DNA from: a virus
DNA: 64,000 bases
IMG/VR virus record: IMGVR_UViG_3300043446_004613
Location: 62,001-126,000 of that record
Reading direction: 5' to 3' (one strand)
The position numbers were made by a program, and so were the translations under genes. This document shows, one piece after another, positions 25,571 to 38,903 of this stretch. A model generated the notes under the pieces. The model had not been told where the DNA came from, made no database searches, and saw only the letters and a list, made by a program, of their open reading frames with translations. The first letter of the stretch is position 1, and every line of letters starts with the position of its first letter.

Positions 25571-26701
25571 ATGGATATGAGCGAAGAAAACTTAGACAGC
25601 TTTGATGTTGTTGTACCGGAAATTCCATTACCGGTAGCAGCAGAAACCGCAGACATTAAAGATGAATTCGAGGGCGGTTTCAAATTCGCTTTTATTGGCA
25701 GCGGCCAAGGCGGCGGGCGACTGGCACATACTTTCTGGAAGCTCGGCTACCGTCGCGTTTGCGCCGTCAACACCGCGTCGCAGGACTTGGCAACCTTGCC
25801 GTTGCCGGAGGCCAACAAGCTGTGTCTCGGCGATGCAGGCGGCGCAGGCAAGAATCCAGCGGTGGCCAAAGCCACGTTCAAAGAGCGCAAAGAGGACGTT
25901 CTCGATTTCATGCGTCGCTCATTCGGCCCCGGACTCGATCGCGTATTTGTCTGCGTTGGTGCGGGCGGAGGAACTGGCGCGGGTACGGCAGTGCAGCTTG
26001 TAGACACAGCCGTCGAACTTCAGAAATCGCTCAAGTGCAAGAGCGACAAGGTCGGCGTCATCGTAGCGCTGCCCAAGCTGGCCGAAGGCAAGAAGGTAGC
26101 CGCTAATGCGTACAACACGCTGAACGATCTTCTGTTCCTTGTTGAAAAGGAGGTCGTATCACCGTTGATTGTGGTTGATAACGAGAAGATTGGAACACTC
26201 TATCCGAATCTCGCTGTTGATCCATTTTGGGATACATCGAATACGAGCGTGTGCTCCCTGTTCCATCTGTTCAATACGATCTGCGTCAAAAACAGCAGCT
26301 ACACCAGTTTCGATCGCGCTGACTTGCTGACGGTACTCGACAGCGGCTTAATCACTTTTGGAGCCAATCCGGTTACTTCGTACAGCAGTGAAACGGACAT
26401 CAGCTATGCTGTTCGTAACAATCTGCGTAAGAACATTCTTACCGGCGGCATTGACCTCGCTACCGGGGACATTGCAGCCGCTGTGGTTATCGGCGGTGCC
26501 GAGATCATGAACTCAATGCCGCAGGCATATATCGAGCACGCGTTTGACCAGCTGAACCGCATGCTCAAAGCAGGCAGCACTGTTCATCGCGGCATCTACA
26601 AGGGCAACAAGAATAACCTAGTCGTGTATACGATGGTAGGCGGTTTGGCGAAGCCGAAAGAGAAACTGGCTGATCTCAAGCGTGTTGGCGACCTGATTTA
26701 G
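25571..26701 (+). CDS. Tubulin/FtsZ-family GTPase
   Basis: 376 residues. GTP-binding loops are visible in order: T1 GSGQGGGRLA (43-52), T2 NTASQDL (67-73), T3 GDAGGAGKNP (87-96) and the tubulin signature GAGGGTGAGT (130-139). Later FDRADLLTVL supplies the DxxD of the catalytic T7 loop. The first 36 residues are an acidic extension. Phage tubulins (PhuZ, TubZ) form filaments that position DNA or the phage nucleus; the G box here is closer to FtsZ/TubZ type. ATG 25577 fits the motif spacing better and would shorten the product by two residues. Confidence 0.88.
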   Translation: MDMSEENLDSFDVVVPEIPLPVAAETADIKDEFEGGFKFAFIGSGQGGGRLAHTFWKLGYRRVCAVNTASQDLATLPLPEANKLCLGDAGGAGKNPAVAKATFKERKEDVLDFMRRSFGPGLDRVFVCVGAGGGTGAGTAVQLVDTAVELQKSLKCKSDKVGVIVALPKLAEGKKVAANAYNTLNDLLFLVEKEVVSPLIVVDNEKIGTLYPNLAVDPFWDTSNTSVCSLFHLFNTICVKNSSYTSFDRADLLTVLDSGLITFGANPVTSYSSETDISYAVRNNLRKNILTGGIDLATGDIAAAVVIGGAEIMNSMPQAYIEHAFDQLNRMLKAGSTVHRGIYKGNKNNLVVYTMVGGLAKPKEKLADLKRVGDLI

Positions 26702-37968: not shown

Positions 37969-38045
37969 CGCGGGGTGGAGCAGCCCGGTAGCTCGTCTGG
38001 CTCATAACCAGAAGGTCGTTGGTTCAAATCCAACCTCCGCAACCA
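37969..38045 (+). tRNA. Initiator tRNA-Met (CAT)
   Basis: 77 bases with encoded CCA. The unpaired C1 x A72 at the acceptor end (CGCGGGG against CTCCGCA), the D arm GAGCAGCCCGGTAGCTC and the loop CTCATAA are hallmarks of bacterial initiator tRNA; it closely resembles E. coli tRNA-fMet. The anticodon stem is TCTGG/CCAGA, so it keeps two rather than three of the G-C pairs used for P-site selection. It is directly upstream of a structured RNA and the tmRNA. Confidence 0.93.
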
Positions 38046-38228
38046 ATTTCGGTAGCTTGCCGTGAGCAAGTGAATGTCGCAGCACGAGCGGCTAGGTACA
38101 GTGCGGGTTGAGAGATTCCCGGCGTCGTGCAGTGTCTCTCTGGTGGAGGGCCAGTGATGGCCCCCGGCGAGCAGCCTAGCGTGACTGCCGCAGTCTTTAC
38201 CGGCTGCAACTGCTCGCTTTTTGATTTT
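38046..38228 (+). ncRNA. Structured RNA of unknown class between tRNA-fMet and tmRNA
   Basis: This 180-base stretch has no gene but many helices: CTTGC/GCAAG (38056-38070), GCACGA/TCGTGC (38082-38087 with 38125-38130), and a perfect GGGCCA-GTGA-TGGCCC hairpin with a GNRA loop (38148-38163). A closing stem CGAGCAG/CTGCTCG (38168-38174 with 38210-38216) is followed by a T-run (38218-38222). GCTAGG/CCTAGC can also pair at distance. The last stem plus T-run looks like a terminator. No match to SRP, 6S or RNase P RNA motifs is visible. Confidence 0.45.
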
Positions 38229-38234
38229 TGATTT

Positions 38235-38652
38235 GGGCGCGTACTGGTTTCGACTTTGATCGTAGCGGTGACGCCGACATGCCGAGGATGATGGTTGGCC
38301 TCGTAAAACAAACCGTCAAAAGTTAAATGCTGAAGAAGCTGAACTGAACAGCCTCCTCGCGGAAGCCGAAAGCATTTTCAACAATGCTGACGAAGTTCTC
38401 GCGAACGCTGAAGCTGTGGCGGCCTAACGGCCACCACCCGTTTACCGATCGATGCCTGCTGAATCGAGTAAACGCCATTAGCAGGACAGTGTGGATGCCG
38501 AGCAACGTCGGCGTTGGCCCGTGCCAGCCTATGGCGCAACCGGCAGGGTTTTCAGTTGTCGCTCTGATCCTGCCGCACAAAAGCGAAGAAGCATGTGAAT
38601 GGTGCAGTGTTACGGACATAGGACAGGGGTTCAACTCCCCTCGCGTCCACCA
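38235..38652 (+). ncRNA. ssrA: Phage-encoded tmRNA with 32-codon tag
   Basis: 418 bases. The tRNA-like ends pair as GGGCGCG/CGCGTCC before CCA, with a T arm CAGGGGTTCAACTCCCCT and a degenerate D arm (TACTGGTTTCGAC). The first pseudoknot region CATGCCGAGG...GGTTGGCCTCGTAAAA is nearly identical in form to bacterial tmRNA. The resume codon is GCT 38329; the tag reads AEEAELNSLLAEAESIFNNA then DEVLANAEAVAA and stops at 38425-38427. Its AA end resembles a ClpXP degron, but 32 residues is long (E. coli has 10). It rescues stalled ribosomes. Confidence 0.92.
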
Positions 38653-38656
38653 CTTT

Positions 38657-38761
38657 ATGAAAGAATTCTTGATCATGTTCGGTGTTGGCTTTGGTGTAGT
38701 CTTGCTTGGGTTTTTGATTGGAAGGCTCTTGGCTAACGTCCTTTTCCCAGAGTCAGACTAA
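38657..38761 (+). CDS. Possible 34-aa single-pass membrane peptide
   Basis: MKEFLIMFGVGFGVVLLGFL onward, ending ANVLFPESD: one clear transmembrane helix with an acidic tail. The ATG is only five bases after the tmRNA 3' end and has neither the start motif nor a Shine-Dalgarno, so expression is uncertain. Confidence 0.35.
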   Translation: MKEFLIMFGVGFGVVLLGFLIGRLLANVLFPESD

Positions 38762-38813: not shown

Positions 38814-38903
38814 GATCCAGCGAATCCGATTAGTCCGCTTAATCCAGCGAATCCAGCTAATCCAAGCAACCTTCTCAATCCAGCAAATCCAGCTAGTCCG
38901 CTG
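38814..38903. repeat. Ten tandem 9-base repeats (consensus AATCCAGCN)
   Basis: Ten consecutive 9-base units, for example AATCCAGCG, AATCCAGCT, AATCCAAGC, AGTCCGCTT. They fill most of the gap 38762-38922. The plus strand would encode NPANPxSPL-type repeats without a start codon. The minus strand encodes GLAGFAGL-type repeats in an open frame (38753-38878, TTG start) ending VNIKWIALYVVFDGRVK. It could be iterons, a protein-coding low-complexity repeat, or both. Confidence 0.7.

Follow-up and report, generated by a model that had tools for sequence, protein, structure and literature searches.

Why some phages encode a tmRNA is a long-standing question, and it is raised again by a tmRNA gene in the 64,000-nucleotide stretch of DNA analysed here (the window), which represents positions 62001-126000 of an IMG/VR viral record of 211,113 bp that may be incomplete. 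The record carries phage DnaB, baseplate, PolA and lysozyme genes, and its PolA has no close relative among isolated phages. tmRNA tags are usually regarded as short, loosely constrained degrons. By contrast, the tag of the window is a long peptide module that is subject to strong purifying selection and has diverged less than the RNA around it, and through its core the question of why phages encode a tmRNA becomes testable. Phage-encoded tmRNAs as such are already established (PMC4131195, PMC7162821, PMC9004378), and the sequence-only reading that preceded this analysis called them rare, in agreement with the published count of 402 in 18,146 phage genomes (PMC9004378).

The feature in the window is a complete, real phage tmRNA. 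ARAGORN and Rfam independently gave identical bounds for a one-piece tmRNA gene (ssrA) at 38235..38652 on the + strand, and the match to RF00023 covered the full length of the model (1-374 of 374) with 127.5 bits (E 1.8e-49), far above the gathering score of 47. The hallmarks claimed in the sequence-only reading, which had named a covariance-model search as a suitable check, are thus borne out. The 5' half of the acceptor stem, GGGCGCG (38235..38241, +), pairs in the Rfam alignment with the 3' half CGCGUCC, which is followed by the discriminator A and an encoded CCA (38642..38652, +). Read from the sequence of both ends, the stem GGGCGCG/CGCGUCC contains a G3.U70 pair, the alanine identity pair recognised by alanyl-tRNA synthetase, and is followed by the encoded ACCA. 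The PK1 pseudoknot region, whose stem in the Rfam alignment is GAUGGUU/AACCGUC, lies at 38284..38317 (+), just 5' of the resume codon. Downstream of PK1, the resume codon GCU directly follows UUAAAU and begins an open tag frame that runs to TAA. On these features the tmRNA is very probably functional.

The gene has a tRNA neighbour. A tRNA-Met (CAT) gene at 37969..38045 (+; ARAGORN; Rfam RF00005, 61.4 bits) is co-directional with the tmRNA and lies 189 nt upstream of it. By eye, this tRNA resembles an initiator tRNA in its C1.A72 mismatch, and its anticodon stem has U-A in place of the first of the initiators' three G-C pairs. A hairpin-like sequence, CTGGTGGAGGG...CCCCCG, is found at 38139-38170 and at L300:1403-1440, 93-95 nt upstream of both tmRNAs, and similar GGTGGAGG stems occur inside the viral tmRNAs of loci L026, L032, L044 and L087. 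Folding of the whole 189-nt tRNA-tmRNA spacer was no better than that of shuffles. On the other side of the gene, a hydrophobic ORF of 34 residues (MKEFLIMFGVGFGVVLLGFLIGRLLANVLFPESD; 38657-38761, +) starts 4 nt past the CCA end of the tmRNA and is possibly a small membrane protein, and the gap after the tmRNA contains short imperfect tandem repeats of AATCCAGCN at 38815-38900.

The tag frame, AEEAELNSLLAEAESIFNNADEVLANAEAVAA followed by the stop TAA, occupies 38329..38427 (+), as given by ARAGORN, by direct reading and by the tags of relatives, which are homologous and share the frame; the conservation of the frame, which had been put forward as a check on the locus, is therefore found. Its 32 codons (38329-38424; record positions 100329-100424) specify a peptide with a net charge of -8. 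The description of the tag as unusually long and acidic holds when it is set against a bacterial sample in which tags have only 8-14 residues (n=25, from one phylum), and within its own family, where the range is 32-46 residues, the window tag is among the shortest. A variable acidic N-terminal part is followed by a conserved core, SLLAEAESIFNNADEVLA (tag residues 8-25; 38350..38403, +; alignment of 32 tags), and by a variable acidic C-terminal part that mostly ends in -LAA and, in the window, in -VAA. In the AlphaFold2 prediction, residues 2-18 and residues 20-31 form two helices, with a break at N-N/A and a mean pLDDT of 90, in a type of model in which short Ala/Glu-rich peptides readily come out helical and confident. 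The tag profile gave nothing better than chance-level matches in the PDB (best E 0.078) and Pfam, and there was no second copy or mimic of the tag in the phage's own 211 kb.

The search for relatives started from a tmRNA 5'-end pattern that was blind to the tag and was run on viral contigs; at several of its loci ARAGORN read long acidic tags like that of the window. When viral contigs were searched with a degenerate DNA pattern that encodes the core I[FM]NNA..[VF]L, 60 loci were found, essentially all of them in-frame tmRNA tags. With a broader pattern, less strict about the residue in the F position, there were 64 viral loci, all of tmRNA-tag form. All but L312 had the signature of a 5' or 3' tmRNA end close by; L312 has a typical tag without a recognised tmRNA end nearby. 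Combined, the two core searches gave about 75 viral loci, essentially every one of them in a tmRNA tag of 32-46 residues, in a count that, like the others, includes near-identical contigs (36 unique tags among the 59 loci tallied). When the first core pattern was applied to about 85,000 bacterial and archaeal genomes or species (257 Gb), it matched 11 times, always outside a tmRNA. Since 0/11 cellular matches sit in a tmRNA, this family of tags, family A, appears to be virus-specific at the sensitivity of the search, and its core has so far been seen only in viruses.

The family-A core is LLA[EQ]A[ED].I[FVIM]NNADE[VF]L, which the window tag carries in frame, and the family consensus is AEDNTSDLLAEAEYIFNNADEFLxGVEEEYxLAA; L10, A13, I16, N18, N19, A20 and L24 are invariant in 32 aligned tags. 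An HMM made from the relatives' tags, with the window tag left out, recovered the window tag from six-frame translation at E = 7e-10. An HMM of three tags (L035, L117, L074 type), from loci that were first found without use of the tag sequence, recovered it at E 1e-9. As judged from these alignments and profiles, the tag interior is a conserved module common to dozens of viruses, which the sequence-only reading had missed. It occurs in dozens of environmental phages, in contrast to the 85,000 bacterial and archaeal genomes in which the first pattern did not find it, and no description of a conserved virus-specific tag core was found in the open-access literature, which was incompletely covered.

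The phages that carry family A are diverse. G+C content runs from 29% to 52% among the loci sampled, most loci have no detectable protein in common with the window in the stretches fetched, and clustering of the adjacent genes gave no gene common to all. In DNA comparison with isolated phages, the only matches were to the short, conserved ends of tmRNAs that belong to other types. A tblastn search of isolated phages with the tag found no match, a result that is uninformative because the known Bxz1 tag was also missed as a control in the same search, probably owing to low-complexity masking. A related PolA stands alongside a family-A tag in L133 (50%) and alongside tags of a second family, described below, in L182 (49%) and L190 (47%), and a related tubulin is present in the second-family members L182 and L082. 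The tubulin/TubZ-like GTPase gene of the window itself (25571-26701, +) has relatives in 48 viral loci at 48-68% identity and is only distantly like the tubulin of Bacillus phage G. The PolA homologues in the L182 and L190 contigs (G037:31336-36738 and G035:30087-34166) appear as separate match blocks in longer frames of 1827 and 1425 codons, which suggests that these frames carry inteins or other in-frame insertions.

If the tag were conserved for structure in the mRNA-like domain of the RNA, the peptide itself would be irrelevant. At some codons there are indeed few synonymous variants, namely AAC at N18 and CTC at L24, the latter being partly imposed by the search pattern. However, synonymous change is frequent and replacement rare in the tag frame only. 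The LLAEAEY codons, which lie outside the first search pattern, gave a pS of 0.74, a pN of 0.11 and a pN/pS of 0.15, while AEDNTSDLLAEAEY gave a pN/pS of 0.27 compared with 1.2-1.6 in the two other frames; for codons that belong to the first search pattern, the pattern itself biases pN/pS, and these values were excluded as evidence. A pattern-free test was provided by relatives found via the phage's tubulin gene. In the closest of these, L251 (68% identity), the tmRNA (L299) encodes a tag of 41 residues, ADNSDDNILNIDSLLAQAESIVNNADEVLAQFPVEQELAAA, which carries SLLAQAESIVNNADEVLA. Between the window and L299, 16/18 core residues are identical, yet 14/18 third codon positions differ. The RNA beyond the tag is also much less conserved, with DNA identities between the window and family-A members of 55-70% for the tag and 35-45% for the inner RNA scaffold. 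RNA-level constraint as the cause was rejected on the codon variation, the frame test, the scaffold divergence and the L299 comparison, and we regard it as scarcely credible. The tag is almost certainly selected as a peptide and, by these codon comparisons, selection at the protein level has preserved its core even as the RNA scaffold diverged. The same purifying selection largely contradicts the view that the tmRNA plays no part in infection, being a carried-along host gene or a passenger in decay, because it has acted over the long term and across many phages; moreover, the structure and frame are intact and the tag appears virus-specific. That view could draw on the rarity of phage tmRNAs (402/18,146 genomes; PMC9004378) and on L002, the closest relative by DNA polymerase (71%), in which no tmRNA was seen in a 56.8-kb fragment, so that the gene may be dispensable. 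We consider it very improbable all the same.

Purifying selection on the peptide lends general support to the suggestion that the long tag does something special; the particular roles that had been proposed for it, sequestration of SmpB and protection of tagged proteins, fared less well. All 36 unique tags end in Ala and 26/36 end in -LAA, the departures being LEA, VVA, LTA, LVA, AVA and AAA together with the VAA of the window, whose degron-like end is AVAA (38413..38424, +). By analogy with ClpX biology, the C-terminus looks like a ClpXP-type degron. A tag that shields or diverts proteins from proteolysis, so that ribosomes are cleared and polypeptides saved, or that acts as a decoy for SmpB or ClpX, would fit the C-termini that are not -LAA, the window among them, and the ClpP-like genes present in 7/40 records, though absent from this phage. 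Protection is nevertheless disfavoured because the ends, with -LAA in most tags and Ala in all, look like a retained degron. Nothing in the sequence points to titration of SmpB, and SmpB binds a tmRNA elsewhere than at the tag; sequestration finds no support, and we hold shielding and decoy roles together to be quite improbable. SmpB itself was found in 0/40 records, this phage included (the control was positive in 10 genomes), and host SmpB is therefore presumably used. SspB is a known adaptor for E. coli tags; an SspB-family adaptor was likewise found in 0/40 records, with a positive control in E. coli and Caulobacter.

We favour, as the probable explanation, a working tmRNA with a peptide-selected tag that joins a degron end to a core docking a partner. 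During infection the tmRNA would be charged with alanine, bind host SmpB, enter ribosomes stalled on broken messages and add the tag by ordinary trans-translation. The C-terminus would stay a ClpXP-type degron, while the predicted two-helix core would dock a host or phage partner, be it a protease adaptor, an unfoldase or a sorting factor, and such docking would let the phage control the fate of the tagged proteins. We lean slightly towards the core being a protein-binding module, although the absence of SspB from the 40 records and the lack of a meaningful PDB or Pfam match count against it. If the core were instead a soluble, helical and acidic spacer for ClpXP or another protease, the tag would be an ordinary degradation tag without a specific partner. 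Flank lengths vary, yet the tags stay acidic and keep the -LAA end, and the long acidic Ala/Glu-rich tags of actinophages differ in sequence (ATDTDATVTDAEIEAFFAEEAAALV; AEADVVVSDSDIAEIEAYANEAALV in GodonK), as a spacer would allow. A spacer, however, has no need for seven invariant residues (L, A, I, N, N, A, L) at set positions, nor for the retention of 16/18 core residues despite largely changed third positions, and we think it rather unlikely. Returning to the docking core, it is tentatively proposed, with somewhat less than even confidence, that in diverse, mostly large phages a virus-only tag of this kind rewires trans-translation and delivers every stalled product to one specific partner. 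If this is true, that partner would be either a sorting factor of the phage or a protease adaptor that it has hijacked, and the host degradation tag would not simply have been copied.

The second long-tag family, NIVDFAPSVAEADEILAKFGYVEEE..LAA, comprises L180-L190, L016, L082, L086 and L115. Its tags resemble those of family A in being 31-35 residues long, acidic and mostly -AA at the end and in sharing [NE]ADE[IV]LA, but have APSVAEAD in place of LLAEAESIFNN. The profile-profile comparison of the two families was weak (probability 34%) and the tag of L312 (..SIVNNADEILASFGCEVLAA) looks intermediate between them; the second family may be a variant, and a relationship by direct homology is suggestive only. 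A third long tag type, basic and of 29 residues, GK[IA]KNVVNAIFGRGSRNESFVGGELALAA, was seen at L044:5175-5561 and L087:322-715. ARAGORN starts many of the family-A tags of L123-L179 about 10 codons late or gives only their last 9 residues, and it missed the tmRNAs of L299, L300 and Gordonia phage GodonK (L206). With common annotation software reading many of these tags only in part or overlooking the gene, truncation and gaps are likely in the published lists of viral tags.

Compared with known systems, the window tmRNA is like the bacterial one-piece tmRNAs of RF00023 in its full-length match, its tRNA-like domain with CCA, its PK1, its resume codon and its tag ending in -AA. It differs from them in the length of the tag, 32 codons as opposed to 8-14 residues, and in the conserved, predicted-helical core, which the first core pattern did not find in any bacterial tmRNA. 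The cyanophage S-SSM7 also has a phage tmRNA with a long tag, of 31 residues, but that tmRNA is two-piece and permuted (Rfam cyano_tmRNA), and its tag is unrelated in sequence and not strongly acidic. Among actinophages, the tag of GodonK, read by eye, is AEADVVVSDSDIAEIEAYANEAALV, and that of mycobacteriophage Bxz1/cluster C (Asterius, ATDTDATVTDAEIEAFFAEEAAALV) is likewise long, acidic and Ala/Glu-rich and is encoded by a one-piece phage tmRNA near tRNA genes. The Bxz1/cluster C tag, however, has 25 residues as annotated and does not match the family-A core profile, against which the Bxz1-type tag scored no higher than shuffled sequences. Long acidic phage tags of the Bxz1 type were already known, and what appears to be new, as far as the open-access literature was covered, is the conserved, virus-specific core.
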